From positions 1 through 35,488 of the IMG/VR virus record IMGVR_UViG_3300010158_000184: DNA of 35,488 nt. The stretch is one strand, 5' to 3'. This stretch comes from a virus. Under the pieces are notes generated by a model. It ran no database searches. It was given only the letters and a program-made list of their open reading frames with translations, and was not told the origin of the DNA. Made by a program: the position numbers and the translations under genes. Position 1 is the first letter of the stretch; every line of letters begins with the position of its first letter. Positions 1 to 13,649 of this stretch are shown one piece after another.

Positions 1-1
1 T

Positions 2-241
2 AGTGAGACAGATTATTTCTCTCAGGGCTTGTGTTATGGTTATATTCGTGGTATCAATCACACTCTTGATATGTGGGCGTATACCAACAAGGCGCAGCCA
101 TTCTGTCGTCCTAATAATGTAACTTTCCAACAACTTAGGGATATCGTTGTTTCATATATTGTAGCATATCCTGTAAAGCGTACAGAGCCTTCTGCATTAC
201 TTGTAACTGAAGCTGAAGCTGCCGCATGGCCATGTCAATAA
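2..241 (+). CDS. Rap1a/Tai-like immunity-domain protein, 5' end outside window
   Basis: The frame is open from the left edge, so this is the C-terminal ~79 residues of a longer protein. The visible part has the Rap1a/Tai arrangement: a Cys followed by GYIRGI, then FCRPNNVTFQQLRDIVVSYI, then a P..R....A..LV...A..AWPC end, with three Cys at the usual spacing. Rap1a/Tai proteins are periplasmic immunity proteins that bind and block T6SS peptidoglycan amidases (established knowledge). A signal peptide would be expected upstream but cannot be seen. A TTG at 29 could be read as a start, but the homology-like sequence continues before it. The role in a phage is unknown; blocking a wall amidase is one possibility. 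Confidence 0.6.
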   Translation, partial: SETDYFSQGLCYGYIRGINHTLDMWAYTNKAQPFCRPNNVTFQQLRDIVVSYIVAYPVKRTEPSALLVTEAEAAAWPCQ

Positions 242-252
242 ACGAGGAAATC

Positions 253-417
253 ATGACAATCGAACAAACACAAGAAGAACTTGCAACTCTAAGAGCAACC
301 TTAGCTAAGATCAACAAGATCGCTGACGATGCTCGAAATGGTGTCAATGCTGCCGACTGGCGTAAGGATTGGCAACGTAACGAATGGATCAAGGTAAGAG
401 ATTTATCCAATGTTTGA
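253..417 (+). CDS. Small hypothetical protein, 54 aa
   Basis: I do not recognise it. The start at 253 is chosen because a GAGGA ribosome-binding site precedes it; ATGs at 226 and 232 in the same frame lack one and overlap the upstream gene. The protein is helical and charged, with a Trp-rich tail (DWRKDWQRNEW). Its stop overlaps the start of the next gene by 8 nt, which suggests translational coupling in an early operon. Confidence 0.5.
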   Translation: MTIEQTQEELATLRATLAKINKIADDARNGVNAADWRKDWQRNEWIKVRDLSNV

Positions 418-808
418 TGAACCAAAACTTAATAAAATGAAAGAATATTTGGCTAGTCCAGAGTTTGCAGAGCTTGCTAGGCAAGCACAAGAAGCAGATG
501 CTAGATATGCTGCTGATTGTGAAAAATACTGGGATGGTTTGTCTTATGATGACAGACTGATGGCATTTAGTTCTGTTGTTAAACGTATTGTTAAAGGAGA
601 CCTTAAAGATCGTGGAAGCTATAGGTATGTGTTGTATGATGTGTTTGGGTTTGATATGGACTCTTACGGTATAGGTATGCAATGTGGGTATATGGACCTT
701 CATAACTCTGTTGTTGATATCGACGAACTAGAACAACTTAGGCTAGAAAATGGCGAATTAAAATCTCTAATTGAGACTAATAAAAATAACGAAGAAAATT
801 ACAAATAG
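410..808 (+). CDS. Hypothetical phage protein, 132 aa
   Basis: No function recognised. The protein has an N-terminal charged helix (about residues 1-40), a central segment with YWDGLSYDDRLMAFSSVVK, an aromatic GYMDLHNSV stretch and a C-terminal Glu/Leu-rich probable coiled coil (about 105-130). The start overlaps the preceding gene. The next gene has its own promoter, so this may end a transcription unit. Confidence 0.6.
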   Translation: MFDEPKLNKMKEYLASPEFAELARQAQEADARYAADCEKYWDGLSYDDRLMAFSSVVKRIVKGDLKDRGSYRYVLYDVFGFDMDSYGIGMQCGYMDLHNSVVDIDELEQLRLENGELKSLIETNKNNEENYK

Positions 809-811
809 GTG

Positions 812-839
812 TTGACTCTCTGTCTGGATGTGGTATTAT
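812..839 (+). promoter_or_regulatory. Sigma70-like promoter for the ATPase operon
   Basis: TTGACT at 812-817 and TATTAT at 834-839 are 16 nt apart. It lies just after the upstream stop and about 30 nt before the ATPase start. The same TTGAC(A/T)/TATTAT pattern recurs before tRNA-Leu. Confidence 0.65.
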
Positions 840-869
840 ATGAATGTAAGCAACAGAGAGAGATAACAA

Positions 870-1736
870 ATGCCTAGAGGTGTTCCTTCTAATGGGTTCC
901 GTAAGACCAAGAAGCGTCTTGCCAATCCTAATTTTGCAGCGTCTTTGATTACTCCAATCCGCGAAGAAGAAACTGATTCTCAGATTCTTGCCAAGCTTAA
1001 GGAGCGGTTCGAGGTTCTGACTTCTCTAACCAATGCGTCAATTTCTGGCGTGTCTCGTTCGTTAATTGTGTCTGGTCCTGCTGGACTTGGCAAGTCATTT
1101 ACAGTCGAAGAGGCACTGAACGAGGACGATCCAGATGGCAATCGTCATACCATTATCAAGGGCTATGTCCGTGCTACTGGGTTGTTCCGTTCTTTGTATG
1201 AGCATCGTCACCCGCATAGCATCCTCGTCTTTGATGATGCAGACAGCGTGTTTTTCGATGATACCTGTCTTAACCTTCTTAAGTCGGCTTGTGATAGCAC
1301 TGACCGCCGCCGCATCTCTTGGATGAGCGAAACAAGGTTTGAGACAGAAGAAGGCGGCGTTATTCCACGCACGTTTGAATTTGAAGGCACTGTTATTTTT
1401 ATCTCTAATCTGGATTTTGATTCCATGATTGATAAAGGTCATAAGCTAGCCCCTCACCTTCAGGCACTTATTTCTCGGTCACACTATATTGACCTTGCAA
1501 TGAAGACCAAAAGGGACTATCATATCCGTATCAAGCAAGTTGTCGCTGAAGGCATGTTGTCTGATAAAGGATATAGTCCAGAAATCGAACAAGATGTTTT
1601 GCATTTTATTAATGATAATCTGGACAGCCTCCGCGAATTGTCTCTTCGTATGGCGCTAAAGCTAGCTGCTTTGCGTAAGGCTAACGAAGGTTCGTTTCAT
1701 AAGTTTGCTAAAATCACTTGCTGTAAGAACGGATAA
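870..1736 (+). CDS. AAA-family ATPase, 288 aa
   Basis: Walker A GPAGLGKS is at residues 69-76 and Walker B ILVFDDAD at about 119-125, followed by a sensor-like ISNLDFDS stretch and an ISRSHYIDL segment that may carry an arginine finger. The C-terminal ~80 residues look like a small helical lid domain. This is a single-domain P-loop NTPase of the kind found in many large phages; the target it remodels is not evident. It has its own promoter and an AGAGAG ribosome-binding site, and it sits 2 nt before a nucleic-acid 3'-phosphatase gene. A link to nucleic-acid repair is inference from that neighbour only. Confidence 0.75.
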   Translation: MPRGVPSNGFRKTKKRLANPNFAASLITPIREEETDSQILAKLKERFEVLTSLTNASISGVSRSLIVSGPAGLGKSFTVEEALNEDDPDGNRHTIIKGYVRATGLFRSLYEHRHPHSILVFDDADSVFFDDTCLNLLKSACDSTDRRRISWMSETRFETEEGGVIPRTFEFEGTVIFISNLDFDSMIDKGHKLAPHLQALISRSHYIDLAMKTKRDYHIRIKQVVAEGMLSDKGYSPEIEQDVLHFINDNLDSLRELSLRMALKLAALRKANEGSFHKFAKITCCKNG

Positions 1737-1738
1737 AA

Positions 1739-2182
1739 ATGGAAACTGTAATTTTTGATATCGATGGAACCCTTGCTGATGCATCGCGGCGACAGCATTG
1801 GGTTTCTTTTAAGCCCCATCAATTCGATGCATTCTTTGCTGACATTGAAAACGATCCTGTTATCTTGCCTGTCAAGCGCATGATCACTGTTATGGCTAAT
1901 GCTGGCTATAAACTTGTGGTGTCCACTGGTAGGGCTGAGAAGTACAGAGAGGGTACACTGCGGTGGTTAGAAAAAAACGGAATGGGGTTTGATTTTGATG
2001 ACTACTGGTTCCGAAAACAAGGCGATTATCGTGATGACGCAATTGTTAAATACGAAATGCTCTTGGAAATGAGAGCAAAGGGATATAACCCTGTTTATGT
2101 CTTTGATGATCGTGACCGAGTGGTTAAGATGTGGCGTGACAATGGTCTTACCTGTTTTCAAGTAGCAGAAGGAAATTTCTAA
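1739..2182 (+). CDS. Polynucleotide 3'-phosphatase-like HAD protein, 147 aa
   Basis: HAD motif I FDIDGTLAD lies at the N terminus (nucleophile Asp7, acid/base Asp9), motif II is STGR, and motif IV-like VFDDRDRVVKMWRDNGL is followed by CFQVAEGNF. The last block matches the C-terminal 3'-phosphatase domain of T4 PseT (polynucleotide kinase/phosphatase) in my memory of that family. The 5'-kinase half of PseT is missing, so this is a stand-alone phosphatase expected to remove 3'-phosphates or 2',3'-cyclic phosphates from nucleic acid ends before ligation. It is 2 nt from the ATPase and shares TAATG with the next gene. Confidence 0.75.
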   Translation: METVIFDIDGTLADASRRQHWVSFKPHQFDAFFADIENDPVILPVKRMITVMANAGYKLVVSTGRAEKYREGTLRWLEKNGMGFDFDDYWFRKQGDYRDDAIVKYEMLLEMRAKGYNPVYVFDDRDRVVKMWRDNGLTCFQVAEGNF

Positions 2183-2364
2183 TGGCGTTTTATGTTAAAA
2201 AAGAAAATACACAAACCCGATCTTTTGTCACGGCGATTGATGCAATTAATTTTGGTATCGGTCTAGGTGGCAATTTTAAGGTTATTGACGAACTAGATAC
2301 GGTTATCTATTCATCATATGCCCTAGCAGAAGAAAAAGATAATCGTTCATTTCTTCAAGATTAG
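2182..2364 (+). CDS. Small hypothetical protein, 60 aa
   Basis: Start overlaps the phosphatase stop (TAATG), so it is coupled to it. There is an amphipathic central segment with a GIGLGGNF turn and an acidic C terminus. No family recognised. Confidence 0.55.
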   Translation: MAFYVKKENTQTRSFVTAIDAINFGIGLGGNFKVIDELDTVIYSSYALAEEKDNRSFLQD

Positions 2365-2366
2365 GC

Positions 2367-2394
2367 TTGACATTCCCTCCGAATAGTATATTAT
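2367..2394 (+). promoter_or_regulatory. Sigma70-like promoter for tRNA-Leu
   Basis: TTGACA at 2367-2372 and TATTAT at 2389-2394 are 16 nt apart, ending about 20 nt before the tRNA. Confidence 0.65.
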
Positions 2395-2415
2395 AAGAGG
2401 GTAAACAGAGTTTCA

Positions 2416-2500
2416 GTCCTTATGGGGGAATTGGTAGACCCGACAGACTTAAAATCTGTTTCCGTATGGAGTGTCGGTTCGACTCCGACTAAGGATACCA
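2416..2500 (+). tRNA. tRNA-Leu (anticodon TAA)
   Basis: The acceptor stem pairs GTCCTTA (2416-2422) with TAAGGAT (2490-2496). The anticodon stem is ACAGA/TCTGT with loop CTTAAAA and anticodon TAA at 2450-2452. A long variable arm of class II type, a TTCGACT T-loop and an encoded CCA (2498-2500) are present. It reads UUA, a codon frequent in AT-rich phage genes. Confidence 0.93.
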
Positions 2501-2558
2501 ATCGGTGCAACACAGCGTGAGATGATAACAACGCATCGTCCGTGGTAGTGGGTTAAAT

Positions 2559-2582
2559 GTTGGTATGAAACATAAGACCAAC
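2559..2582 (+). repeat. Hairpin GTTGGT/ACCAAC with shared loop motif
   Basis: A 6-bp stem encloses a loop beginning ATGAA and ending TAAG. The core GGTATGAA...TAAGACC recurs at 5578-5596. It sits in the 94-nt gap between tRNA-Leu and the next small gene. Function unknown. Confidence 0.4.
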
Positions 2583-2606
2583 AGCCATTAGTTTATGGAA
2601 GTGAAT

Positions 2607-2792
2607 ATGGAAGTAACACAAGAAGTTCCTACTGAAGAATATTTCAATATCCAGATAAGCGATCTTGAAAATCAAATCATTCAAGGAATTGAATTGAACG
2701 AAGAGTTTGACATCATCTTGTTTTTCGAGCATGTTATAGACTCGTTATACGAAGACCTAAAGAAATATTATCCAGAAAGCGTGAGGATTTAA
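2607..2792 (+). CDS. Small acidic hypothetical protein, 61 aa
   Basis: The start at 2607 has GGAAG at good spacing; an in-frame ATG at 2595 would add four residues but lacks a ribosome-binding site. The protein is strongly acidic (many Glu/Asp) with an FFEHVIDSLYEDLKKYY helix. It is followed 1 nt later by another small gene. No family recognised. Confidence 0.5.
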   Translation: MEVTQEVPTEEYFNIQISDLENQIIQGIELNEEFDIILFFEHVIDSLYEDLKKYYPESVRI

Positions 2793-2793
2793 G

Positions 2794-2961
2794 ATGCCTA
2801 AGTGGTATGATACAGCAGTCAATGAATTGGAAGATGCACTAGAAGCTGGTGCTATCACCCAAAAGCAATATAAGTTATTTGTTCGTGACCTTAACGAAGA
2901 ACTAGAAGAAGTTAGTTATTCTAACTCATATGATCCACACGAAGAGAGGGATGGCTGGTAA
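2794..2961 (+). CDS. Small acidic hypothetical protein, 55 aa
   Basis: ATG at 2794 follows a GTGAGGATTTAAG ribosome-binding region and reads MPKWYDTAVNELEDALEAG at its start, ending ...DGW at TAA 2959-2961. The stop shares its last base with the next ATG (TAATG). Acidic and helical; unknown function. The tight overlap on both sides supports it as a real gene. Confidence 0.55.
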   Translation: MPKWYDTAVNELEDALEAGAITQKQYKLFVRDLNEELEEVSYSNSYDPHEERDGW

Positions 2962-3386
2962 TGCGTACCGCAGCAATTATTAAGATTGAAAACGGCTGGC
3001 GTGTCGTATGTATGGATAATGACGAAGTAGAAAAGACACTTGATCTTTTTGATTATAGTTATTCTTACGTTAAAGAAGTTGCAGAAAATTGGGCTAATGG
3101 TATAATCAAGAGTGAAATAAAGAAAGAGGAAGTCGATATGTTGTATATTGAAAATGCCGACGAAGCAAAAGATCGCATTATGATCGAAAATCTAACAGAA
3201 TGTGCTCATAATTTGGTCGATAACATTCATCGCAGCATCGCTGATTCAATCGATGAGAATGCTAATATCGTTCCTTATCTTGCACAAGACGTACAAGACA
3301 GCATTGATGCACTAAATGCAATCAATAAGGTTCTTGAATATTTTGGTGGTGATTTTGTAAGCTGGACTGGATATGCCCGTGGCTAA
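2961..3386 (+). CDS. Hypothetical protein, 141 aa
   Basis: Starts with a beta-type segment (RTAAIIKIENGWRVVC) and continues with acidic helices (about 40-140). It overlaps the preceding gene by 1 nt and the following gene by 14 nt. An internal ATG at about 3139 has an upstream GAGGAAG and could give a shorter second product, but this is speculative. No family recognised. Confidence 0.55.
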   Translation: MRTAAIIKIENGWRVVCMDNDEVEKTLDLFDYSYSYVKEVAENWANGIIKSEIKKEEVDMLYIENADEAKDRIMIENLTECAHNLVDNIHRSIADSIDENANIVPYLAQDVQDSIDALNAINKVLEYFGGDFVSWTGYARG

Positions 3387-3903
3387 TCACGTTCACCAAC
3401 AACTCACAATTTACAGCACCAATTTTGATTGCCATGAACGATTTGATGTTATCATGAGCAACGAAAATCCAGAATTGGTGCTTTTTCCTGATTTAGATTC
3501 TCTCCGTGATAGTTACATTGAAGTCTTGGGTGCTAAGTGGGTTGTCTTTGAAGATCACGAAGTTCCGTCTATAGATGCTCATGGGATGATGGAATCCACT
3601 GCAAATCTATACAGCGCATGGAGTGTGGTTGACGGGTTCATCGAAGAACTATCTAATCAACTATCAGAAATTGATCCTGAAGTCGTAATCACTACATTCT
3701 ATTATGACGAAGGATTTAATTTTGCTGGTGCTAGTAAGCTTTATGATGGCGACATGATTGAAATCAAGGAACATACATATGATGAACTTCTTGAATTAGG
3801 TTTGTTGCTTCCAGAAGAACTTCCTGAAGGCGAAGAGTTTGATCCTGAGTCTGTTCGTTATGACGCTGATTGGGAAAAGATGTACGATTACTTCGACCGA
3901 TAG
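3373..3903 (+). CDS. Api92-like protein, 176 aa
   Basis: The N terminus (NHVHQQLTIYS) resembles the first strand of the ferredoxin-like fold of phage Api92/YubB-type proteins, which typically begin with an NHV..LTI-like sequence. The rest is acidic with alternating helices and strands and an aromatic C terminus (WEKMYDYFDR). Function of this family is unknown. The assignment rests only on the N-terminal pattern and overall acidity. Confidence 0.45.
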   Translation: MPVANHVHQQLTIYSTNFDCHERFDVIMSNENPELVLFPDLDSLRDSYIEVLGAKWVVFEDHEVPSIDAHGMMESTANLYSAWSVVDGFIEELSNQLSEIDPEVVITTFYYDEGFNFAGASKLYDGDMIEIKEHTYDELLELGLLLPEELPEGEEFDPESVRYDADWEKMYDYFDR

Positions 3904-3912
3904 TTTGGTTAA

Positions 3913-3987
3913 GTCTCAGTCGTTCAACGGATAGGACATCAGATTTCTACTCTGATTATGGGAGTTCGATTCTCTCCTGAGACGCCA
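3913..3987 (+). tRNA. tRNA-Arg (anticodon TCT)
   Basis: Acceptor stem GTCTCAG (3913-3919) pairs with CTGAGAC (3977-3983). Anticodon stem TCAGA/TCTGA encloses loop TTTCTAC with anticodon TCT at 3946-3948. T-loop TTCGATT and encoded CCA (3985-3987). It reads AGA, common in AT-rich phage genes and usually rare in alphaproteobacterial hosts. Confidence 0.92.
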
Positions 3988-4039
3988 ATCATATATACCT
4001 TATTAACTTTAAGAAGTATCGTGGACAAGGAAGACCATA

Positions 4040-4105
4040 ATGCATCCATTTTATATTTGTTTAATTGGTCTTGGAATTTGTTGGTTTTTAATTGTTACTA
4101 AGTGA
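4040..4105 (+). CDS. 21-residue single-span membrane microprotein
   Basis: ATG at 4040 follows AAGGAAG at workable spacing. The product MHPFYICLIGLGICWFLIVTK is almost entirely one hydrophobic helix with a terminal Lys. It lies between tRNA-Arg and the tmRNA promoter. Short length limits certainty; the ribosome-binding site and clean transmembrane composition favour a real gene. Confidence 0.4.
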   Translation: MHPFYICLIGLGICWFLIVTK

Positions 4106-4114
4106 AAATAATGC

Positions 4115-4142
4115 TTGACATTATTCGTTGATGTGATATAAA
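4115..4142 (+). promoter_or_regulatory. Sigma70-like promoter for tmRNA
   Basis: TTGACA at 4115-4120 and TATAAA at 4137-4142 are 16 nt apart. Transcription would begin near 4149, just upstream of the tmRNA acceptor piece. Confidence 0.7.
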
Positions 4143-4148
4143 TAGTTT

Positions 4149-4211
4149 GTTCGTTGATGCGGACTGATAACTGGTTGTGACGCGAAGGGCGGTACTTCGC
4201 CGCCTCCACCA
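4149..4211 (+). ncRNA. tmRNA acceptor piece
   Basis: The T-arm is a 6-bp stem GCGAAG/CTTCGC (4182-4187/4195-4200) with a non-canonical 7-nt loop GGCGGTA instead of TTCRANY. I recall alphaproteobacterial two-piece tmRNAs having such a loop, but could not verify it. The mature 3' end is the encoded CCA at 4209-4211. The 5' end is approximate, placed at the predicted transcription start. Confidence 0.75.
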
Positions 4212-4312
4212 CAGATACATTAGACGAGTTTAGCCTAGGAAGCGGCTCGGTTACTTTGACGAGTAGCGAACGATAGTGCGTCAACACTATTCATATCTAG
4301 TGTATCTTTGAT
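4212..4312 (+). other. tmRNA intervening segment (removed in processing)
   Basis: A 12-bp helix pairs AGATACATTAGA (4213-4224) with TCTAGTGTATCT (4296-4307), with one G-U pair. It brings the CCA end and the coding-piece 5' end together, as expected of a precursor loop cut out by host RNases. Confidence 0.7.
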
Positions 4313-4506
4313 GGGGGCGAAATAGGATCGAGCAGCAGTGCCTAGGAATGTGGAGAACACGGTAAGAAACGACCGACAATCAGTTCAAAACGAGAAATGC
4401 TAACTTTATTGCTAGCAATGACAACGAGTTTGTAGCTATGAAAATGGCTGCTTAATCTGAGTTATTTGGAGCTTCGGGGATGTGCTCTATAACCTAAACA
4501 TCCTCA
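4313..4506 (+). ncRNA. tmRNA coding piece with tag frame and 3' pseudoknot
   Basis: It starts at GGGGGCG and carries the 18-codon tag (4399-4452, stop 4453-4455). After the tag, GAGC (4469-4472) pairs with GCTC (4484-4487) while GGATGT in that loop (4478-4483) pairs with ACATCC (4498-4503), giving an H-type pseudoknot. The 3' end overlaps the stop codon of the opposing endonuclease gene. Confidence 0.75.
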
Positions 4507-5001
4507 CTTATCTGGGTACACCCAATATTTTGTACCATCTTTCCTAGATATCAGTTTTCTTCCTGTTACTGTTTGGCTTTGCTTATAAGCACCTTTTTTA
4601 CCATTATCTGCGGAGTTTTTTGGAGATAAATATTTTGAAGATATTTGACCAAGACCAAGAGTTTTACGAGTTTCACTAATTTTGTTTTTTTGTTCAGTTG
4701 TCATTGGCATATTTTTATTTTGTCCGCCGCCAACTGCATTTTCTGGAACCATATTAGCCCATTCAGGCGATTCAACAATATTATGTTCTTCTGAAAACTT
4801 TAATGCAAACTCAGTGCACAGTTCTTGATCATCAAAACCCCAAACTTCTAGAGTTTTGATATGATCTTTGCCGTGCTTTTTAAAATGATTTGACCAATAT
4901 GTACCAGAACCATTATATGTGTAAGGATCAGGTTTAATAGTTTTTCCGAAATATTTTAATTTTGTTACGGAATGCTGTTTTACATACAAATAAATATTCA
5001 T
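4504..5001 (-). CDS. GIY-YIG homing endonuclease, 165 aa
   Basis: The N-terminal ~90 residues carry a GIY-YIG-type nuclease fold: IYLYVKQH for the GIY strand, KLKYFGKT for YIG, then YNGSGTYWSNHFKKHG and a Glu in the helix after it. The C-terminal part (about 110-165) has NUMOD3-like DNA-binding segments (TEQKNKISETRK; GKKGAYKQSQTVTGRK). Such enzymes cut intron-less or intergenic homing sites and spread their own gene. It faces the tmRNA and ends exactly at its pseudoknot, which may mark its insertion point. A late promoter and a structured leader precede it on this strand, with AGGAG as ribosome-binding site. Confidence 0.85.
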   Translation of the reverse strand: MNIYLYVKQHSVTKLKYFGKTIKPDPYTYNGSGTYWSNHFKKHGKDHIKTLEVWGFDDQELCTEFALKFSEEHNIVESPEWANMVPENAVGGGQNKNMPMTTEQKNKISETRKTLGLGQISSKYLSPKNSADNGKKGAYKQSQTVTGRKLISRKDGTKYWVYPDK

Positions 5002-5024
5002 AGCTGATCTCCTAGTGGGTTAGA

Positions 5025-5058
5025 GCTAGTAGGCTTCAGGGACGTTGCCGTGACTAGC
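5025..5058 (-). promoter_or_regulatory. Structured leader RNA of endonuclease 1
   Basis: On the minus strand a 6-bp stem GCTAGT/ACTAGC encloses 22 nt that include a GCAA-capped minihairpin (ACG/CGT) and a CCC.GAA.CC string. The same layout with different stem bases precedes endonuclease 2. It starts at the predicted transcription start and ends 23 nt before the ATG. Confidence 0.6.
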
Positions 5059-5073
5059 ATTACTATTTATAAT
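5045..5073 (+). promoter_or_regulatory. Sigma70-like promoter for structured RNA
   Basis: TTGCCG at 5045-5050 and a perfect TATAAT at 5068-5073 are 17 nt apart. It overlaps the opposing late promoter, so the two should compete. Start expected near 5081. Confidence 0.55.
5064..5071 (-). promoter_or_regulatory. T4-type late promoter for endonuclease 1
   Basis: TATAAATA on the minus strand, an exact T4 late consensus, about 65 nt before the endonuclease start; transcription would begin near 5057. Confidence 0.65.
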
Positions 5074-5080
5074 AAACTTA

Positions 5081-5248
5081 TTATCTTGTCTGGTCTATTG
5101 ATGCAGGGTAGCGTGTACAGACGTGTACACTAGTCGAGCACAATTAGCGAGAGACGTGTTCTAAGATAACTGACTGTCGCCAGTGCGGAGGTAAGCTCTC
5201 TGAGCACGAAAAGGTCAGCATCAATAGTCCAAACAAGATATCTTGTTT
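5081..5248 (+). ncRNA. Structured RNA, ~165 nt, unknown class
   Basis: A long closing stem pairs 5083-5104 with 5218-5239 (20 of 22 positions). Inside are a hairpin GTGTAC/GTACAC (5113-5118/5125-5130), GAGCAC/GTGTTC (5136-5141/5156-5161), CTGAC/GTCAG (5170-5174/5214-5218) and a nested GTGC-GGAG/CTCT-GCAC hairpin (5183-5207). The right arm is also half of an 18-bp perfect palindrome (5231-5248), so it has two possible partners. It could be a stable RNA or the 5' leader (riboswitch-like) of the membrane protein at 5279. I do not recognise any known class. Confidence 0.55.
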
Positions 5249-5278
5249 ACCTTAATAATGATCCATAGGAGTGATCAA

Positions 5279-5509
5279 ATGTCTAAGTTTTTTGGTTGGT
5301 TACGAACACACGCTTCTAGCATTTATTTTATGTTTCTAGGTTTAGCCTTAATTGCAGTTGTCGGTGGTGCTTGGCGGCAGGAGGCTAGAGAACGAGAGCA
5401 AGTTATTTCTGAGCATCCTCAATGTTTGCTACTTGACAAATCCAATCGAGATAGCTATTATTACATGGTATGTGATGGTGCTGTTGTTATCGTAAAGCCA
5501 AACAGCTAA
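5279..5509 (+). CDS. Small membrane protein, 76 aa
   Basis: The start at 5279 follows TAGGAG at proper spacing; an upstream ATG in frame (5243) lies inside the structured RNA and lacks a site. One transmembrane helix (about residues 13-33, IYFMFLGLALIAVVGGAW) is followed by a charged stretch and a small C-terminal domain with two Cys (HPQCLLLD, YMVCDG). Probably inner-membrane with the C-terminal part periplasmic or cytoplasmic; function unknown. The long structured leader before it may control it. Confidence 0.6.
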   Translation: MSKFFGWLRTHASSIYFMFLGLALIAVVGGAWRQEAREREQVISEHPQCLLLDKSNRDSYYYMVCDGAVVIVKPNS

Positions 5510-5512
5510 ATA
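5506..5512 (+). promoter_or_regulatory. Late promoter candidate CTAAATA
   Basis: CTAAATA overlaps the stop codon of the preceding gene and points toward the gene at 5750. Confidence 0.45.
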
Positions 5513-5749
5513 AATTTGTGGTAAGGAAAGCCAGCACGTCAGGGAAATAGGTCGCAACTTACTCTTAGCACGACTGGATGGTATGAATAAGACCATAAAA
5601 GGAGCATGGGAGACAGCAACAAGGTTTTGCAGTCGGATACCGCACCTGCCACTTCAATGTTCGATCTAGATACCAGCAATGGTCACAATCCTAGAAGGAA
5701 TTCGGATCAAAGATGTGCGATCCACACACACAAACACAGGAAATATAAT
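5513..5749 (+). other. 237-nt leader without a convincing gene
   Basis: The frame of the next gene is open back to an ATG at 5606, but that ATG is only 1 nt from its AGGAG and the encoded sequence looks non-protein-like. The stretch holds an ATGGT/ACCAT hairpin (5578-5596) sharing its loop with the one at 2559, and a GGATC/GATCC hairpin shortly before the ribosome-binding site of the 5750 gene. It is probably an untranslated leader. Confidence 0.4.
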
Positions 5750-6001
5750 ATGACTAAGACACCTTTTGAAATACGCCTAGAACTATTGAAGCTAGCTAAG
5801 GATATTATTAGCGAAGACTTTTATAATACTAGGCAAGCTATTGAAACACAATATCATGTAGATATGGATAACTGGAAAAAGAACTATCAAATCGGTAGGA
5901 CTGAGCCACATATTAAGTTTCCAGATATTCCATATACAGTGACACAAGAAGCAGTTGTTGCTATGGCTACAAAGCTAAATGAGTTCGTTTCAAACGGCTA
6001 A
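5750..6001 (+). CDS. Hypothetical protein, 83 aa
   Basis: ATG at 5750 follows CAGGAAA at good spacing. The N-terminal TPFEIRLELLKLAKDII is a recurring start in small T4-like phage proteins of unknown role. The rest is helical (DNWKKNYQIG, VTQEAVVAMATKLNEFV). No catalytic motif seen. Confidence 0.6.
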   Translation: MTKTPFEIRLELLKLAKDIISEDFYNTRQAIETQYHVDMDNWKKNYQIGRTEPHIKFPDIPYTVTQEAVVAMATKLNEFVSNG

Positions 6002-6011
6002 AACACTCATG

Positions 6012-6018
6012 CTAAATA
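6012..6018 (+). promoter_or_regulatory. Late promoter candidate CTAAATA
   Basis: CTAAATA 28 nt before the next start; expected transcript start near 6025 gives a short leader with AGGAGAAGG. Confidence 0.55.
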
Positions 6019-6045
6019 AATCACCTCTAAAACAGGAGAAGGTAC

Positions 6046-6252
6046 ATGATAGTTCTTATTCTTTTACTGGTGATGGGTACATTTTATTTCTATCAGCATA
6101 AAAAACTTATGACTAATGAAATAAATATTTTGCGTTCTACAATAGAAAAGTTAGAAAGCAAGCTTGCCGATGAATTATCCTTAAACGCATCCAATGCAAC
6201 TAAGGAACAAATTATTCAGAGGCTAAAAGAAGCAAAAGCTTCAAAAAAGTAA
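6046..6252 (+). CDS. Membrane-anchored coiled-coil protein, 68 aa (possible i-spanin)
   Basis: An N-terminal transmembrane helix (about 2-16, VLILLLVMGTFYFYQ) is followed by a coiled coil (about 22-66). The strong AGGAGAAGG site and a late promoter indicate late expression. It directly precedes a wall hydrolase, so it could be an inner-membrane spanin or holin accessory; size and topology fit an i-spanin but no o-spanin lipoprotein is visible nearby. Function is inferred from position only. Confidence 0.5.
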   Translation: MIVLILLLVMGTFYFYQHKKLMTNEINILRSTIEKLESKLADELSLNASNATKEQIIQRLKEAKASKK

Positions 6253-6271
6253 AAAACCACTTTACAAATTG

Positions 6272-6338
6272 GTCAAGAGGGGTTACACTCTCTTGACTAC
6301 CACTACTGAGCGTCTCAGTGAAACAAACATTCGTTTGT
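6272..6338 (+). repeat. Three consecutive hairpins
   Basis: GTCAAGAG/CTCTTGAC (6272-6297), ACTGAG/CTCAGT (6305-6319) and ACAAAC/GTTTGT (6323-6338) are perfect stems in the 143-nt gap before the hydrolase. They may form a structured leader or a weak terminator; no U-tract follows. Confidence 0.5.
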
Positions 6339-6395
6339 ATGTACTCTTTATTTTATTCTTTTTAATGATGGGGACGCCAAGAAAAAGGAAAGACT

Positions 6396-6947
6396 ATGCA
6401 CGATCTACTAAGGAAAAATACACTAGCGTTTGGATTTTTATTCGGCATTATAATTGGTATTTTATCTACTGCCAATGCTCACCAAAAGCAAGTTCCAATT
6501 GTTCCCGTGGTTATCGAAAAGCAAGTAATTGTTAAAGTTCCCGTGAGACTAACTAATTTCGATAAAAAACAAATTGCCTGTCTAACAGACAATATATCTT
6601 ATGAATCTAATAACCAATCCGATAAAGGTAAAGCTGCCGTAGCTCATGTTGTTTTAAATAGAATTAAAGAACGTAAGTTTGGTAACACAGCCTGTTCGGT
6701 AATCACACAAAAGAGAAATAACACTTGTCAATTCTCTTGGGTGTGTCATACTAAAGCCAAGATTGATTCGGACGATAGAATTGAAAATAAGCGCATCGCT
6801 GAAGATGTATATCTAGGAAATACTCCTGATAACACTGGTGGTGCAACTTATTATCATGCAAAATGGATGAAAACATATCCTATGTGGTCTAATAAATTCA
6901 AAAAAACCACAAGAATAGAAAGTCATATATTCTATTCAGATTCGTAA
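6396..6947 (+). CDS. SleB-type cell wall hydrolase with membrane anchor, 183 aa
   Basis: Residues about 9-28 form a signal-anchor-like hydrophobic segment ([19 protein letters not shown]). From about residue 60 the Hydrolase_2/SleB pattern follows: [13 protein letters not shown] with the catalytic Glu, [13 protein letters not shown], a Cys before [21 protein letters not shown], and IESHIFY at the C terminus. SleB-family enzymes are lytic transglycosylases that cut peptidoglycan; in phages they act as endolysins. The N-terminal segment suggests export by Sec, possibly as a signal-arrest-release endolysin. Start has AAGGAAAG before it. A second, different endolysin is encoded at 14609. Confidence 0.82.
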
Positions 6948-7564
6948 AAACATTTACTTAGTGTAGTGTGCCTTTTGTAGTTTCCAGGATTAAATCCTTT
7001 TCTACAAAAGGCACATACATTTTCTTTTTGTTTTTGACGATTGCTAAGTGCTTTTTTTTGAGATTCTGTGTTTGGTAACATAATCTGAAGTTTTCTTTTT
7101 TCTCTTATTTTTTGTTTTGTTTCTTCAGACATAGGTTTTCTAGCTGATGGATTTGAAATACCTGTTTTGGTTTTTCTAATTTTATCAACAACTTCTTTGG
7201 GTTTTGATTTTCCTAGATGAGATTTTCTTATTTTTTGTTTTGTTTCTTCAGAACAAGGATGGCGGTATAATCCTGTCTTTCCTTTATTCCACGGAATTCT
7301 TCCAACAGCAGTTTCTCCGCCATCTGTCATGTTTCTTAATATTCCAGTATTATTATCTTTTCTTCCATACCAACGAATATATCTACGTTCTAATGCGAGA
7401 GCGCCAAGTTCCGACAAATTGCTTTCCATTATTACAATACGTTCTTTTTTTGTAGGAAGATTTACTCTATGATTACTAGAATATGCTCTTTTATGCTTAC
7501 CCTTACCAATATAGTAAGGTGTGTTATCTTTTCTAAGATAAGCATAAACGTAATAAATAAACAT
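6932..7564 (-). CDS. GIY-YIG homing endonuclease with C-terminal zinc finger, 210 aa
   Basis: The N-terminal GIY-YIG fold is visible ([20 protein letters not shown]; then [11 protein letters not shown] with the catalytic-type Arg, and LRNMTDGGE). Two NUMOD3-type repeats follow ([16 protein letters not shown] near residue 110; [12 protein letters not shown] near 150). The C terminus has a Cys2-His-Cys motif, [16 protein letters not shown] then KC. This is a mobile endonuclease inserted convergent to the SleB hydrolase, overlapping its 3' end by 16 nt. It has an AGGAG site, a late promoter and the same leader RNA fold as endonuclease 1. Confidence 0.87.
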
Positions 7565-7590
7565 AGCTGATACTCCTTGAAAGTGTTAGA

Positions 7591-7624
7591 GTAGATGGGA
7601 TTCTGGGGAGTCTCCGCGATCTAC
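7591..7624 (-). promoter_or_regulatory. Structured leader RNA of endonuclease 2
   Basis: On the minus strand stem GTAGAT/ATCTAC encloses 22 nt matching leader 1 at 14 of 22 positions, including a GAGA tetraloop position and the CCC.GAA.CC string, while four of six stem pairs differ but remain paired. Confidence 0.6.
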
Positions 7625-7629
7625 AATTA

Positions 7630-7636
7630 TATTTAG
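7630..7636 (-). promoter_or_regulatory. Late promoter for endonuclease 2
   Basis: CTAAATA on the minus strand; the predicted start near 7623 falls at the first base pairs of the leader hairpin, as for endonuclease 1. Confidence 0.55.
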
Positions 7637-7684
7637 AAAACAGCAAACCCCAACAGCACACATTTTTTACAGAGGCTAAAGTGA

Positions 7685-7912
7685 ATGATTAATATTAGGT
7701 CAGAAGATACGTTCTATGAGCAAGTTGAGGATTTAGTCTGGCAACATGATATTAACTATATTGATGCTATTGTTATGTTCTGTGAAACTAATAACTTAGA
7801 AATCGAAAGCGTTGCTAGTCTTATTCTAAGAAACGAAAATCTTAAGAGTAAGCTAGCAGATGATGCTGAAATCTTGAATTACTTGCCCAAGACCAGCAAA
7901 CTTCCCATCTAA
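7685..7912 (+). CDS. 33: Late transcription coactivator gp33, 75 aa
   Basis: The pattern FYEQVEDLVWQ..INYIDAIVMFCE..N.EIESVASLI, then LKSKLADDAEILNYLPK and SKLPI, matches phage late-transcription coactivators of the T4 gp33 type (small, acidic, helical). gp33 links the late sigma factor gp55 on host RNA polymerase to the sliding clamp gp45, coupling late transcription to replication. It is directly followed by gp59, the same order as in T4. Late promoters found here are consistent with such a system, although gp55 is not in the window. Confidence 0.75.
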   Translation: MINIRSEDTFYEQVEDLVWQHDINYIDAIVMFCETNNLEIESVASLILRNENLKSKLADDAEILNYLPKTSKLPI

Positions 7913-8493
7913 TGGACGCTTTTGATTGCTATGTTTGTTACCTAGCTATGAAGCGGCATTTCTCAGATACAGAATACGACTTCATAAAATATCGTGGAAA
8001 AGTGAAGGCATCCAGATCATCTTTTCAAAATAGAAGAGATATGTTTATGTTTGAAAAACTAGTAAAACATAAACACGTTCATCAATATCTGTTGGCTAAC
8101 TTTGTCAAGAGAGGACCAAAGGTATACGTTTCTGATTTGGTCCAAGACCAAGAAAGTCAGCGTATATATATTGAGTGGAAAAGACGACAAGAATCATTGT
8201 CTAGATCATATAAGAATGAGTTAGAGCATCTAATAGAACCTTTTGATGATAACTTTAAAAGTAAGGATGGCAAACATCCACACCTATTGAAGGTGTACTT
8301 TGCAGGTAAAATATCATTAGAAACATTAATTATATTGAATAATATGCTTGACTTTTTTCCTAGATGGTGTAAATATATGAGGGGCGACCCAATATGGGAA
8401 GAACTGTGGTTTAAATGCGTAAAGTATGAACCATTCTTACAGTACGACAAACAGAAAATGAAAAAGATAACACTAGATAGTGTTTATGAATGA
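7912..8493 (+). CDS. 59: Replicative helicase loader gp59, 193 aa
   Basis: Similar in layout and length to T4 gp59 (about 217 residues): an N-terminal AFDCYVCYLAMKRHFSD.EYDFIKYRGKVKAS segment followed by FQNRRDMFMFEKLVKH, a central YIEWKRR region and a helical C-terminal domain with ISLETLIILNNMLDFF and IWEELWFKCVKYEPFL. gp59 binds fork DNA and loads helicase gp41 onto gp32-coated ssDNA. The start overlaps the gp33 stop (TAATG). In T4 the order is 33-59-32; here gp32 lies almost 7 kb downstream. Confidence 0.82.
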   Translation: MDAFDCYVCYLAMKRHFSDTEYDFIKYRGKVKASRSSFQNRRDMFMFEKLVKHKHVHQYLLANFVKRGPKVYVSDLVQDQESQRIYIEWKRRQESLSRSYKNELEHLIEPFDDNFKSKDGKHPHLLKVYFAGKISLETLIILNNMLDFFPRWCKYMRGDPIWEELWFKCVKYEPFLQYDKQKMKKITLDSVYE

Positions 8494-8506
8494 AAGAGGA
8501 TTAAGT

Positions 8507-9424
8507 ATGGTTGAGATTACGTTTAATACAAACCCACAACAAAAACAAAGTTTTACCCCCATGACTATTCCAGCTCCAATCTTTCCAGATTTTAATTATA
8601 ATTCGTTAAATTCTGAAAAAATGGCAAATGCAAAACGAATTAATAATGAAACATTTTGGCCAGTTATGCGAGAAGTTTTTGCACACGACTTTAATACATT
8701 GCCTCTTGAGCGATTTAAAGTTTGGGCATCTACGATGACTGTTCCTTTTATGGCTGGAGGCGACTTCAAACAATATGTGGATATTGCTAATCAAATCATT
8801 GATTCTGGAGATGAATTATACATTAATGCATTACTAGAACCAATGATTGGTCTTACAGAAGAAGACTTTAAACTATACTCCTCTTCTGATAGAATTAAGA
8901 CAACCCTGAATCGTATGATGAATATTGCACATCTGGTTATTTGTAATATTACTTCTGATGATCTTAGTAAGATGAATACCATTGTTGAACTTGGCGGTGG
9001 TATTGGTGAGATGGCAGATGTCGTTTACAAGCTAGGGTTTAAAGGAAAATATATTCTTTATGATTTTCCAGAAATCGGAAATATTCAAAAATGGTTTCAT
9101 GATCAATTAGGTCATACAAACATTCTCCACACGTCAAATATTGATGATTTGATTGATGCTGATCTTTGTATCGCTACTTGGTCTTTCACTGAAATGCCGT
9201 TGTCTTTACGGAATGAACTCATGGAAAAAATTGGTAAGACAAAGAATTGGTTGATTGCATATAGTAATTATATTTTCTCTATTGATAATAATGATTATAT
9301 CAAGAATACTTTTGCTCCTCAATTTACAAATCATGAGTTCACATACATCGATGTTCCTTTCATGCCTTGGAACGATGGAACATTTTATCTAACTGTCAAA
9401 CAAAAAACAACTGGAGAAATTTAA
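8507..9424 (+). CDS. SAM-dependent methyltransferase (sugar O-methyltransferase-like), 305 aa
   Basis: The SAM-binding motif TIVELGGGIGEMADVV lies near residue 157-172, with YILYDFPEI as the acidic-loop motif and DADLCIATWSFTEMPL as the post-II region. The N-terminal ~150 residues are a helical extension. The combination resembles putative sugar O-methyltransferases involved in surface glycan decoration. The ATG at 8507 follows AGAGGATT and is preferred over upstream ATGs that overlap gp59. The adjacent methyltransferase suggests a small modification module; the substrate is not evident. Confidence 0.65.
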   Translation: MVEITFNTNPQQKQSFTPMTIPAPIFPDFNYNSLNSEKMANAKRINNETFWPVMREVFAHDFNTLPLERFKVWASTMTVPFMAGGDFKQYVDIANQIIDSGDELYINALLEPMIGLTEEDFKLYSSSDRIKTTLNRMMNIAHLVICNITSDDLSKMNTIVELGGGIGEMADVVYKLGFKGKYILYDFPEIGNIQKWFHDQLGHTNILHTSNIDDLIDADLCIATWSFTEMPLSLRNELMEKIGKTKNWLIAYSNYIFSIDNNDYIKNTFAPQFTNHEFTYIDVPFMPWNDGTFYLTVKQKTTGEI

Positions 9425-9426
9425 TA

Positions 9427-10038
9427 ATGGTTAAGTATTACGCAGAACAAGAAGTGGCATATGAAAGTCACGATCACATTGACCCAAAGGGAACAATGGC
9501 GGATAATTTACATAGTCCAGGCTTTGCAGATAAGATTGTCTCTCTCTTAGGGAAAGACATGAATTATTGCGACCTTGGTACTGCTGGCGGCGGAATTGTT
9601 AAGGATTTCGTTGATCGTGGAATTGTTAATGCTTATGGTATTGACGGGTCTGACTATTCAAAGAAGATAAGTCGGGCTGAGTGGGCAACTATTCCCAACA
9701 ATCTGTTTACTGGTAATATCTGTAAGACATTTAATTTTAAGGATGATGCAGATGAACTAATTAAGTTTGATCTAATCACTTCTTTCGATGTTCTTGAACA
9801 TATTCACGAAAAAGATTTGACAGGTCTTATTGAAAACCTTCATAACAATCTAAAGGTTGGCGGATACTTCTTGTCGTCTATTGCTGAATTTGAAGATGAA
9901 GGATATCATGTTACCCTAAAGCCTGAGCAGTGGTGGGTTGATTTGTTTGAAAGTAACGGATTTGTTCGTGATGAAATCATTCAATCTTATCAATATGCTC
10001 GATCAAGCAGCTTTAACATTACTTTTAGGAAGCTCTAG
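9427..10038 (+). CDS. Class I SAM-dependent methyltransferase, 203 aa
   Basis: Motif I is YCDLGTAGGGIVKDFVDRG, followed by YGIDGSDYS, FDLITSFDVLEHI (typical of Methyltransf_11/23) and LKVGGYFLSS. The start at 9427 has GGAGA at proper distance; a longer frame from 9367 would overlap the previous gene. It follows the sugar O-methyltransferase-like gene by 2 nt, so the two are co-transcribed. Substrate unknown; a glycan or nucleotide-sugar is plausible by pairing. Confidence 0.7.
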   Translation: MVKYYAEQEVAYESHDHIDPKGTMADNLHSPGFADKIVSLLGKDMNYCDLGTAGGGIVKDFVDRGIVNAYGIDGSDYSKKISRAEWATIPNNLFTGNICKTFNFKDDADELIKFDLITSFDVLEHIHEKDLTGLIENLHNNLKVGGYFLSSIAEFEDEGYHVTLKPEQWWVDLFESNGFVRDEIIQSYQYARSSSFNITFRKL

Positions 10039-10052
10039 TTTATATTCACTTA

Positions 10053-10060
10053 TATAAATA
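10053..10060 (+). promoter_or_regulatory. Late promoter TATAAATA
   Basis: Exact T4 late consensus 39 nt before the virion protein gene at 10099. Confidence 0.65.
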
Positions 10061-10098
10061 ATATAACATTCTTGAGACAAATAAAGGTTATATTATAG

Positions 10099-10923
10099 AT
10101 GGATGAGAAAGAACAAAAACTTCTTAAGGGGTTATCAAAACTATTAGGTAATCCTGAAGTTTCTGAATCCGTCATTAATGAAATCGAAGCTAACGCTAAA
10201 AAGCGTGAAAAAGAAAAGAAGATATTAGAAGGGTTAGAAAAAGCCCTTTTAAATATCAATGCACCAAAAAACAAAACTGAAGTTATAGAAGTAGTAGAAG
10301 TAGAAACAATTGAGATTGTTGAAACTCCTGCTCCTTTTATAGCTCCAGTTATTGTTGAATCTAAGTTCACTGATATAGCTATTGATAATTCTAAAAAAGT
10401 AACTGAGCCTACTTTTTCTGCCGTCGAAAGACAACCAGAACTTCCAGAAAAAGATTTTGTTACTAAGTCGGTAGAAGCTATAAGCAAAGAAACCGAAAAC
10501 AAACCAAAAAAACAAAAAGTACAAGATGAAATACCAGCATCTTTCAGAAGAGAAATGGACTTATTAAAAAAGTCTGTTATGGATTTGCATTCTTTTGCGT
10601 CCAGAACTTCACAAATGGCTGGTGGTGGCGGTGCTGGTTCCGTTGAAGAACTAGATTTTAGAACCATTCTTGTAACAACAGATTACACTGCAAATAACAA
10701 AGATTATTATATCGGCGTGAATTGCTCAACTGCTTGCACCATAACTTTACCAAAAAATAAGAAGAATGGCAGACACCTTGTTGTAAAAGACGAGAGTGGG
10801 CTGTGTTCTATAAATAATATAACAGTTGTTGGTAGCAGCATCGATAATGATACAACAGCAGTGATGGGCATAAACAATATGGCATTACACTTTGTGTATA
10901 GAAATGGTTGGAGAATTATATAA
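10099..10923 (+). CDS. Putative virion structural protein, 274 aa
   Basis: The N-terminal ~170 residues are charged, Glu/Lys-rich and probably coiled coil; a Gly-rich hinge (AGGGGAGS, about 176-183) leads into a C-terminal beta domain with DYYIGVNCSTACTITLPKN, LVVKDESGLCS, ITVVGSS and the ending LHFVYRNGWRII. That C-terminal pattern is common in tail or capsid-associated proteins of cyanophage- and pelagiphage-like T4 relatives, where it forms a fibre- or decoration-like domain. A late promoter precedes it. The next gene overlaps by 1 nt. Confidence 0.6.
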   Translation: MDEKEQKLLKGLSKLLGNPEVSESVINEIEANAKKREKEKKILEGLEKALLNINAPKNKTEVIEVVEVETIEIVETPAPFIAPVIVESKFTDIAIDNSKKVTEPTFSAVERQPELPEKDFVTKSVEAISKETENKPKKQKVQDEIPASFRREMDLLKKSVMDLHSFASRTSQMAGGGGAGSVEELDFRTILVTTDYTANNKDYYIGVNCSTACTITLPKNKKNGRHLVVKDESGLCSINNITVVGSSIDNDTTAVMGINNMALHFVYRNGWRII

Positions 10924-11519
10924 TGTCTTATTTGTATAGCAACGCTGTATCAATCAATAATAGTAACAATTCACCTATTACTAATACTGCTCCGTTACCT
11001 GTTACTGGTACAATTATTACTACAGATCAAGTTGGCGATTTATATTCTTTTAACAACCATGCAACAAACACAAATCGTGGTTGGACTATGGACGATACTA
11101 TGCGTCCTGTTGTTAGTTTTAAAAATGGTAGTCCCAATCTCGCAGATTTAATTAAAATTGTCGAATATGAAATCGGTAATAATAATGCAAGTGCAAGTAC
11201 AATTATATACGAATGGTATGAAGGTGATATAACAATCTCAGGTGCTGCCGTACCTGCTTGGACTACGTTTGGTGTTCACAGTCAATATCGTGTATATCAA
11301 GACAAATATTCTTCTAATGCAGGAAATACATTTACTCCGAATGGAGCAATAATGAGACATAGCGGTATTATAATTGGTAAAAATGCCGCTGCGGATGAAG
11401 CTCCTGCATCAATGCATGGCGGAGGAACTCCAAATATGCTTACTTTGTGTATGAGACGAGTTGATAATTCTACTAAATTAGATGTGTGGTTTGCCTTTAC
11501 TATTAAAGAGCTAATATAG
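10923..11519 (+). CDS. Putative virion structural protein, 198 aa
   Basis: ATG at 10923 shares its A with the upstream stop, so it is coupled to the preceding structural gene. Composition is beta-rich, Asn/Thr/Ser-rich and low in Lys, as in adsorption or capsid-decoration proteins. No recognised domain. The assignment as structural rests on composition and the shared operon with a late promoter. Confidence 0.5.
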   Translation: MSYLYSNAVSINNSNNSPITNTAPLPVTGTIITTDQVGDLYSFNNHATNTNRGWTMDDTMRPVVSFKNGSPNLADLIKIVEYEIGNNNASASTIIYEWYEGDITISGAAVPAWTTFGVHSQYRVYQDKYSSNAGNTFTPNGAIMRHSGIIIGKNAAADEAPASMHGGGTPNMLTLCMRRVDNSTKLDVWFAFTIKELI

Positions 11520-11530
11520 TAAAAAAGTGC

Positions 11531-11559
11531 TTGACTTTAGCATTTTGTCGTGTTATAGT
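11531..11559 (+). promoter_or_regulatory. Sigma70-like promoter for outer-membrane protein
   Basis: TTGACT at 11531-11536 and TATAGT at 11554-11559 with 17 nt between them, directly upstream of an operator-like palindrome. Confidence 0.7.
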
Positions 11560-11565
11560 CTGATC

Positions 11566-11581
11566 ATGGTGATATCACCAT
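11566..11581 (+). promoter_or_regulatory. 16-bp perfect palindrome, possible operator
   Basis: ATGGTGATATCACCAT is perfectly self-complementary and begins 7 nt after the -10 box, where a repressor or the start-site hairpin could regulate the OMP gene. Confidence 0.45.
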
Positions 11582-11613
11582 ATAATAATATTAACAATAA
11601 AAGGTAATACAAT

Positions 11614-12183
11614 ATGAAGAATACACTATTGGCTCTAACTGCCGTTTCTGCTCTAGCAATTGCTGCTCCTGTAATGGCTGCTTCAGTCACTTCTGAAGTT
11701 CGTTTTGGTGATGTTAGTGGTAATACTACTGATTCTCGTGAATATAAGCTAGAGTATTCTGCTCCTGCTCCGATCTTCACAAAGCTTAATCTTGCTACAG
11801 AGCTTACTGTAAAGCAAGGCGAACATGAAGGTGCAATTACTTCGAAGCTCGCTTCACGTCTAGAAACTCCTACGATTAACGTGTTCGGTGTTGTTCCAGT
11901 TGCTTACGGTGAATTCGGTAGCTCTTTCAAGCAAGGCAACAATTTTAACTTTGTCGGTGCTGGTGTTAAGGCAAGCAAGCAAATTGCTGGTCCTCTATCT
12001 GCAACAGTAGGCTATCGCCATCGTCAAGGTCTAGAGACAACTCGTGATCTTAATGAAGATCGTCTAAATGCTGGTCTAACTTATGCTGTTAATAAGGATT
12101 TCGGTCTCGGCGTTCAGTATTATCGTACCACTGGTGCGGTTGACTTTGACCAAGTTGGTCTACAGCTAGTCCGCAAGTTTTAA
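11614..12183 (+). CDS. Outer-membrane beta-barrel protein with signal peptide, 189 aa
   Basis: A Sec signal peptide is clear: MKNTLLALTAVSALAIAAPV then MA|A cleavage. The mature part alternates polar and hydrophobic residues in about eight strands (VTSEVRFG, REYKLEYS, LNLATELTVK, AYGEFGSSFK, FVGAGVKAS, SATVGYRHR, LNAGLTYAV, FGLGVQYYR) and ends LQLVRKF, with the C-terminal Phe used by the BAM machinery. Length fits an 8-stranded OmpA/OprG-like barrel. It has its own sigma70-like promoter, palindrome and 3' hairpins, so it is expressed as a single-gene unit, probably early. Altering the infected cell's surface (for example receptor masking) is a guess. Confidence 0.75.
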   Translation: MKNTLLALTAVSALAIAAPVMAASVTSEVRFGDVSGNTTDSREYKLEYSAPAPIFTKLNLATELTVKQGEHEGAITSKLASRLETPTINVFGVVPVAYGEFGSSFKQGNNFNFVGAGVKASKQIAGPLSATVGYRHRQGLETTRDLNEDRLNAGLTYAVNKDFGLGVQYYRTTGAVDFDQVGLQLVRKF

Positions 12184-12186
12184 ATA

Positions 12187-12255
12187 ATTCGGCTTCGGCT
12201 GAATTGGCGAGGGTGGCAACACCTCAGATACCCCTTGGCGAAAGTCAAGGGGTAT
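12187..12255 (+). terminator. Three-hairpin 3' structure after OMP gene
   Basis: ATTCGGC-TTCG-GCTGAAT (12187-12204), GAGGGTG-GCAA-CACCTC (12209-12225) and a 12-bp stem capped by GAAA (12228-12255). Each loop is a stable tetraloop class. No U-run follows, so it may protect the mRNA end as much as terminate. Confidence 0.6.
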
Positions 12256-12274
12256 TCTAAAGAAAGAAAATACT

Positions 12275-12724: not shown

Positions 12725-12735
12725 AAGGAAAGAAA

Positions 12736-12831
12736 ATGAAGACTGAAACATTCTTAAAAGTTGCTATTCCTGCAATTTTGTGTTATATTGCAATTCTAGT
12801 AACTGTTGTAGTAGTAGCCGTTCTAGGTTAA
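12736..12831 (+). CDS. 31-residue membrane microprotein
   Basis: ATG at 12736 follows AAAGGAAAG. The product has a short polar start (MKTETFLK) and then one hydrophobic helix (VAIPAILCYIAILVTVVVVA). It sits 11 nt after the previous gene and just before tRNA-Asn. A strong ribosome-binding site and the transmembrane composition support it. Confidence 0.5.
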   Translation: MKTETFLKVAIPAILCYIAILVTVVVVAVLG

Positions 12832-12838
12832 GTTTTGA

Positions 12839-12911: not shown

Positions 12912-12915
12912 CATC

Positions 12916-12970: not shown

Positions 12971-12974
12971 TTAA

Positions 12975-13646: not shown

Positions 13647-13649
13647 ATA
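13642..13649 (+). promoter_or_regulatory. Late promoter candidate CATAAATA
   Basis: One mismatch to TATAAATA; a start near 13656 would give a short leader before the HicA-like gene. Confidence 0.45.

Follow-up and report, generated by a model that had tools for sequence, protein, structure and literature searches.

In trans-translation, an alanine-charged RNA carrying an open tag frame (tmRNA) releases ribosomes held up on broken messages and labels their product for degradation by ClpXP-type proteases. Permuted, two-piece forms of this RNA borne by phages are already known as a kind and are common in viral metagenomes. The two-piece tmRNA of the Methylophilales phage Melnitz (MZ577097.1) has been published, with its gene order noted and its promoter called early only by its authors (PMC9004378); 53 two-piece genes were counted in that paper, and 79 unique phage tmRNAs have been listed elsewhere (PMC11915505). 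The question posed is whether such a phage RNA serves ribosome rescue or the writing of a tag of its own. The window analysed here, a 35,488-base IMG/VR record, is a fragment of a T4-like myovirus and, like the T4-like myophage Melnitz, carries an alpha-type permuted tmRNA gene with gp33, gp59 and gp32 downstream (directly so in Melnitz).

Genomic context

The window encodes the T4-like myovirus proteins gp32, gp59, gp33, gp53, a gp5-type hub/lysozyme, a tail tube cap, PhoH and ribonucleotide reductase. Its nearest isolate, judged by the tail protein at 23422-24900, is Caulobacter phage Cr30; a permuted tmRNA is absent from both Cr30 and Sinorhizobium phage phiM12. At the DNA level, megablast of positions 1-20000 returned only the gp32 of a cyanophage and the tmRNA region gave no match in phage records. 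A 19-base word of the tmRNA gene was found in more than 120 IMG/VR contigs. Of the 90 loci with sufficient sequence, 62 have gp33, gp59 or gp32 downstream of the tmRNA on the same strand. The three genes are pushed apart by insertions in the window, where gp32 is the third gene of the T4-like module and is preceded by a 6.8-kb insertion. A gene whose product starts MTKTPFEIR directly follows the tmRNA in L055, L056 and L119; about 1.2 kb, including a homing endonuclease, is interposed in the window (4456-5750). The window also harbors tRNA genes for Leu(TAA) at 2416, Arg(TCT) at 3913, Asn(GTT) at 12839 and Met(CAT) at 13946, the tRNA-Arg gene preceding the tmRNA promoter by about 130 bp. Near the tRNA and tmRNA genes, positions 1739-2182 encode a domain resembling a polynucleotide kinase phosphatase (HAD_PNKP, phrog_505), of the sort known from T4 tRNA/RNA repair.

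Identification and anatomy of the tmRNA gene

An earlier note, made from the letters alone, had placed at positions 4115-4506 a phage-borne permuted tmRNA that specifies a tag of its own, and had proposed a covariance search with the Rfam alpha tmRNA model. That search, together with the parts collected in Table 1 and the T4-like contig, bears the reading out. The window matched RF04321 (tmRNA_permuted) at 4148-4455 with 83.6 bits (E 8.9e-15) and RF01849 (alpha_tmRNA) at 4111-4508 with 61.2 bits (E 1.3e-14), both above the curated thresholds of 47 and 50 bits, respectively. Sequence comparison thus confirmed an intact, promoter-bearing gene for a permuted (two-piece) tmRNA. ARAGORN called the four tRNAs of the window and made no call of a permuted tmRNA at 4115-4506. 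No riboswitch or other RNA family was detected in or near the tmRNA gene at E values up to 1.

Table 1. Features of the tmRNA locus and its surroundings (window coordinates)
Feature	Position	Strand	Evidence or remarks
Composite promoter: sigma70-like -35 box TTGACA (4115-4120), 16 nt, T4 late-type box TATAAATA (4137-4144)	4115-4144	+	
Acceptor piece: P2 strand, T-arm, acceptor 3' strand, A73, encoded CCA	4148-4211	+	RF04321 alignment
T-arm: 6-bp stem, GGCGGUA loop (loop used by alpha tmRNAs)	4182-4200	+	
Acceptor 3' strand CGCCTCC (RNA CGCCUCC)	4201-4207	+	followed by A73 (4208) and CCA (4209-4211)
Intervening segment, 101 nt, presumably removed on maturation	4212-4312	+	
12-bp helix closing the intervening segment, AGATACATTAGA/TCTAGTGTATCT	4213-4224/4296-4307	+	0 of 300 shuffles as good
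5' module of coding piece	4313-4398	+	RF04321 and RF01849 alignments
Acceptor 5' strand GGGGGCG	4313-4319	+	pairs with 4201-4207
TAGGATCGA	4323-4331	+	in 5' module, with P2 strand and PK1
PK1, S1 CGGU/ACCG	4360-4375	+	
Tag frame ANFIASNDNEFVAMKMAA (18 aa) and stop TAA (4453-4455)	4399-4455	+	gapless Rfam alignment to the resume codon; pattern in 7 related contigs
3' pseudoknot (4467-4505), S1 UGGAGC/GCUCUA	4467-4472/4484-4489	+	pseudoknot: 2 of 150 shuffles as good
3' pseudoknot, S2 GGGGAUGU/ACAUCCUC	4476-4483/4498-4505	+	
Candidate GIY-YIG-like homing endonuclease, convergent	4504-5001	-	phrog_314, E 1.5e-6; no Pfam GIY-YIG match
gp33 (late-transcription coactivator) and gp59 (helicase loader)	7685-8493 (starts 7685 and 7912)	+	phrog_254, phrog_269; synteny
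gp32 single-strand DNA-binding protein	15332-16279	+	phrog_224, E 7e-113; used for the tree

The individual parts that the note had named, namely the T-arm and A-CCA end upstream, a 12-bp helix across the intervening segment, acceptor strands pairing across that segment, the TAGGATCGA element, an open tag frame and a 3' pseudoknot, were all recovered at or near the positions given there, with a G3-U70 wobble in the acceptor stem, and the folded precursor is more stable than its shuffles (z = -3.9 and -4.8). In related loci the acceptor strands covary across the intervening segment (GGGGATG/CATCTCC, GGGGACG/CGTCTCC, GGGGGTG/CACCTCC, GGGGCCG/CGGCTCC and GGGGTCG/CGACTCC), with the G3-U70 wobble unchanged in 116 of 116 phage genes and in the 163 bacterial genes compared. 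The helix of the intervening segment begins at a constant position and differs in its letters among relatives, with compensatory changes. Compensatory changes in the 3' pseudoknot occur in L125, L349 and others; in S2, GGGGATGT/ACATCCTC of the window corresponds to TGGTGCTGT/ACAGCACCA in L125. In the Rfam alignment, only part of the P2 helix that joins the two pieces has canonical pairs, and its region pairs otherwise when folded freely as a single strand; P2 apart, every feature tested places the predicted RNA in the permuted tmRNA family. Intervening segments of phage permuted tmRNAs have a median length of 80 nt and mostly contain a helix of at least 9 bp (loci L001-L127 and L269-L349), whereas in an even sample of 73 alphaproteobacterial genes the median is 27 nt and only two segments reach at least 60 nt. 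In L123, L119 and L136, the 193-nt intervening segment contains the acceptor 5' strand (GATGGGGGCG) a second time, an arrangement resembling a partial gene duplication.

Tag sequence and resume codon

The tag belongs to a group of 18-19 aa with the consensus A-x2/3-A[SH]NDN-x3/4-AMK[IMV]AA, formed with phage relatives of similar C-terminus. Standard phage tags in the compared set have 10-15 aa, most commonly 14, and three tag sequences have 29-31 aa; the description of the window tag as longer than usual at its N-terminal side therefore holds. Tag length alone is not unique, since long tags are also present in a few alphaproteobacteria. Among the very long phage tags are one of 31 aa (ANDNVAQPKFMKKRNTFARKVGFTKGMALAA), one of 29 aa (ANDNALSNVTFVDFSAPVTAVNEDFALAA) and a group containing ...FASILP..VERVSLV... 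and ending in ASA (loci L086, 4098-; L064, L076, L099, L115; L058, L084, L085).

The resume codon is most plausibly GCU 4399-4401, which gives the 18-residue tag originally read. This codon is favoured because the Rfam alignment runs from PK1 to the first GCU at the consensus spacing without a gap, and because L055 and L056 have 5' modules of the same length that are 94% identical up to the first-GCU codon and are followed by different tags. Resumption at GCU 4411 of a real tmRNA, with a 14-residue tag ASNDNEFVAMKMAA and the ANFI part as untranslated spacer, would begin the tag at the A[SH]NDN motif that is kept by all relatives of this tag type and resembles the usual ANDN start, and would yield the commonest phage tag length; L125, moreover, carries GUC rather than GCN at the position of the first GCU. 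Against these points stand the gapless PK1 spacing, the extent of the L055 and L056 modules, and the presence of both candidate codons in frame in 8 of 8 relatives, which together make the downstream start unlikely.

Cassette exchange of the tag block

AMK-type tags are scattered among phages. A gp32 tree built from 39 loci requires seven changes for them, six of which are forced by well-supported branches, and a single origin was recovered in none of the bootstrap trees. Between L055 and its sister L056, identity is 93-94% across the acceptor piece and 5' module and falls to 51-58% in the tag and pseudoknot, whereas L055 and the unrelated L122 share an identical tag (100%) and a 91% identical pseudoknot, with a 5' module of 54% identity. 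From this mosaic it follows that tag and pseudoknot move as one block, which behaves as a cassette swapped between unrelated phages. A comparable mosaic is present in other locus pairs with standard tags.

The long AMK-type tag might alternatively be that of an unsampled host, captured whole, its scatter reflecting several phages of that host. The ANDNAPFAMAVAA tag of some phages resembles the ANDNRAPAMAVAA-type tags of Rhodobacteraceae, and the long tags of a few alphaproteobacteria would suit such an origin. However, the pattern NDN..AMK[ILMV]AA was found in 0 of 385 alphaproteobacterial genomes, 215 of which contain the standard ANDN..AA pattern, and a stricter AMK-tag pattern anchored on GGATCGA had no match in 84,980 species, while a looser control pattern gave more than 120. 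Furthermore, L055 has its tag DNA in common with L122 and its 5' module with L056, pointing to exchange between phages rather than capture of a whole gene. An origin from a host tag is thus improbable, and exchange of the tag block among phages is the preferred reading.

Neighbouring homing endonucleases

The convergent endonuclease gene beside the window tmRNA places its stop codon within the final bases of the pseudoknot and has its own TATAAATA box near 5071. The position of such genes varies among relatives: a GIY-YIG gene lies just downstream of the tmRNA in L348 and L349, just upstream in L122, L126 and L127, and 844 bp downstream in L029, and in L125 an HNH-type gene in antisense orientation overlaps the tmRNA pseudoknot. 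About five of eight AMK lineages have an endonuclease neighbour, compared with one or two of some 50 standard loci (p about 1e-4, with small counts and an approximate standard total). An earlier test of these neighbours was biased, its queries having been drawn from AMK-type loci; in a PHROGs scan of neighbouring ORFs that is free of this bias, phrog_314 matched 4 of 25 ORFs beside AMK-type genes, and no homing-endonuclease family appeared among the best 25 families listed for 148 ORFs beside standard-tag genes. The 35 kb of the window contain four homing endonuclease genes of GIY-YIG or Seg-like type (4504-5001, 6932-7564, 12975-13646 and 34302-34724), those at 4504 and 12975 with a TATAAATA box just upstream.

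Exchange of the tag cassette is probably helped by these neighbours. L055, L123 and L124 have no homing-endonuclease neighbour, so homing is put forward here as a hypothesis only. Tentatively, the tag and pseudoknot block could be a mobile allele, the adjoining endonucleases converting ANDN..LAA alleles of co-infecting phages to A..A[SH]NDN..AMK[IMV]AA and thereby yielding a phage-specific degron, unlike that of the host, on proteins made during infection. If true, movement of a tag block among phages in company with homing endonucleases would open a new way for a quality-control signal to diversify.

Composite promoter

The sigma70-like promoter named in the earlier note is present as a TTGACA box, and what follows it is a T4 late-type box. 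TATAAATA occurs upstream of the tmRNA in 86 of 115 phage loci, nearly always 65-82 nt before the CCA end, and at the corresponding place in none of 72 bacterial permuted tmRNA genes. A -35 box with at least five of six matches accompanies 51 of 76 distinct TATAAATA sites at tmRNA genes, in 48 cases at a distance of 17 nt, compared with 12 of 139 other TATAAATA sites (Fisher p = 3e-19, a value that ignores kinship and serves as a guide only). Most simply, one start would serve host sigma70 early and the T4-type late machinery afterwards, and the late box supports expression of the window tmRNA late in infection. Given the composite early/late promoter, the fixed site near late-transcription genes and an exchangeable tag, the purpose of a tmRNA in a lytic phage becomes testable.

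Proposed function

The gene with its component parts and tag frame, the boxes of its promoter, the synteny and the exchange of the cassette are established by comparison of sequences, and the window very probably encodes a working permuted tmRNA of alphaproteobacterial type in a T4-like myovirus, whose processing, charging, tagging, proteolysis and timing we infer. Its most likely role, in the early as well as the late phase of infection, is trans-translation in partnership with host SmpB. A single transcript would begin just after the TATAAATA box, with the sigma70-like -35 box and the T4 late box keeping the gene on in both phases. Host tRNA-processing enzymes would excise the 101-nt hairpin, leaving the acceptor piece (about 4149-4211) and a coding piece from 4313 to about 4505 joined by base pairs, and host AlaRS would charge the RNA via G3-U70. 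No SmpB or SspB was found in eight phage records, most of 104-217 kb, so the window RNA would use host SmpB, which may bring the charged RNA to ribosomes halted on broken mRNAs. Translation would then resume at GCU 4399 and append Ala-ANFIASNDNEFVAMKMAA, a predicted C-terminal degron whose hydrophobic-Ala-Ala end fits a ClpXP-type signal. The tag block itself is exchanged among phages as a cassette, probably with the help of neighbouring homing endonucleases. Rescue of late translation, replacement of host tmRNA and redirection of tagged proteins, as suggested in the earlier note, are roles that the RNA might serve.

That the gene is instead a passenger or decoy, diverting SmpB or stalled ribosomes from host tmRNA or decaying as a functionless host copy, is very unlikely: a tag-less tmRNA of phage DS6A does inhibit host tmRNA (PMC11915505) and the window tag is unlike all bacterial tags examined, but the promoter, acceptor stem, G3-U70, CCA, open tag frame and pseudoknot are intact, with compensatory conservation in diverged phages and a tmRNA locus conserved among them.

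Comparison with known systems

To our knowledge, the new points are the AMK tag group, the apparent exchange of the tag block as a cassette beside endonucleases, and the putative composite promoter upstream of gp33-gp59-gp32; in the open-licence literature we found no prior report of such a promoter, of the group of long AMK-type tags, of their mosaic distribution or of their neighbouring homing endonucleases. In the order of acceptor piece, intervening segment and coding piece, the window gene resembles Caulobacter ssrA and the RF01849 family, and it shares with alphaproteobacterial RF01849 tmRNAs the acceptor stem, the T-loop GGCGGUA, TAGGATCGA, PK1 and the resume context. In contrast, the alphaproteobacterial genes have a short intervening segment (median 27 nt), no TATAAATA at the corresponding place (0 of 72) and tags mostly of the form ANDN..[AVLI]AA, none being AMK-type.

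The neighbourhood recalls the intronless homing of T4 Seg endonucleases (PMC2988022, PMC3037559) in having a free-standing GIY-YIG-like gene by the locus, a T4-like phage and scattered alleles nearby. Unlike Seg homing, it involves several unrelated endonucleases (GIY-YIG and HNH) on different sides of the tmRNA, and the case for homing at the tmRNA consists of association and mosaic alleles. Melnitz and the window both have a long hairpin in the intervening segment and similar promoters, with TTGACA and TATAAATA separated by 17 nt in Melnitz and 16 nt in the window. They differ in that Melnitz has no homing endonuclease beside its tmRNA, a glutamine riboswitch reported in the 3' domain (PMC9004378) that finds no counterpart in the window, and a tag of 14 aa (ANDNYVPVDYALAA), compared with the 18 aa of the window tag.
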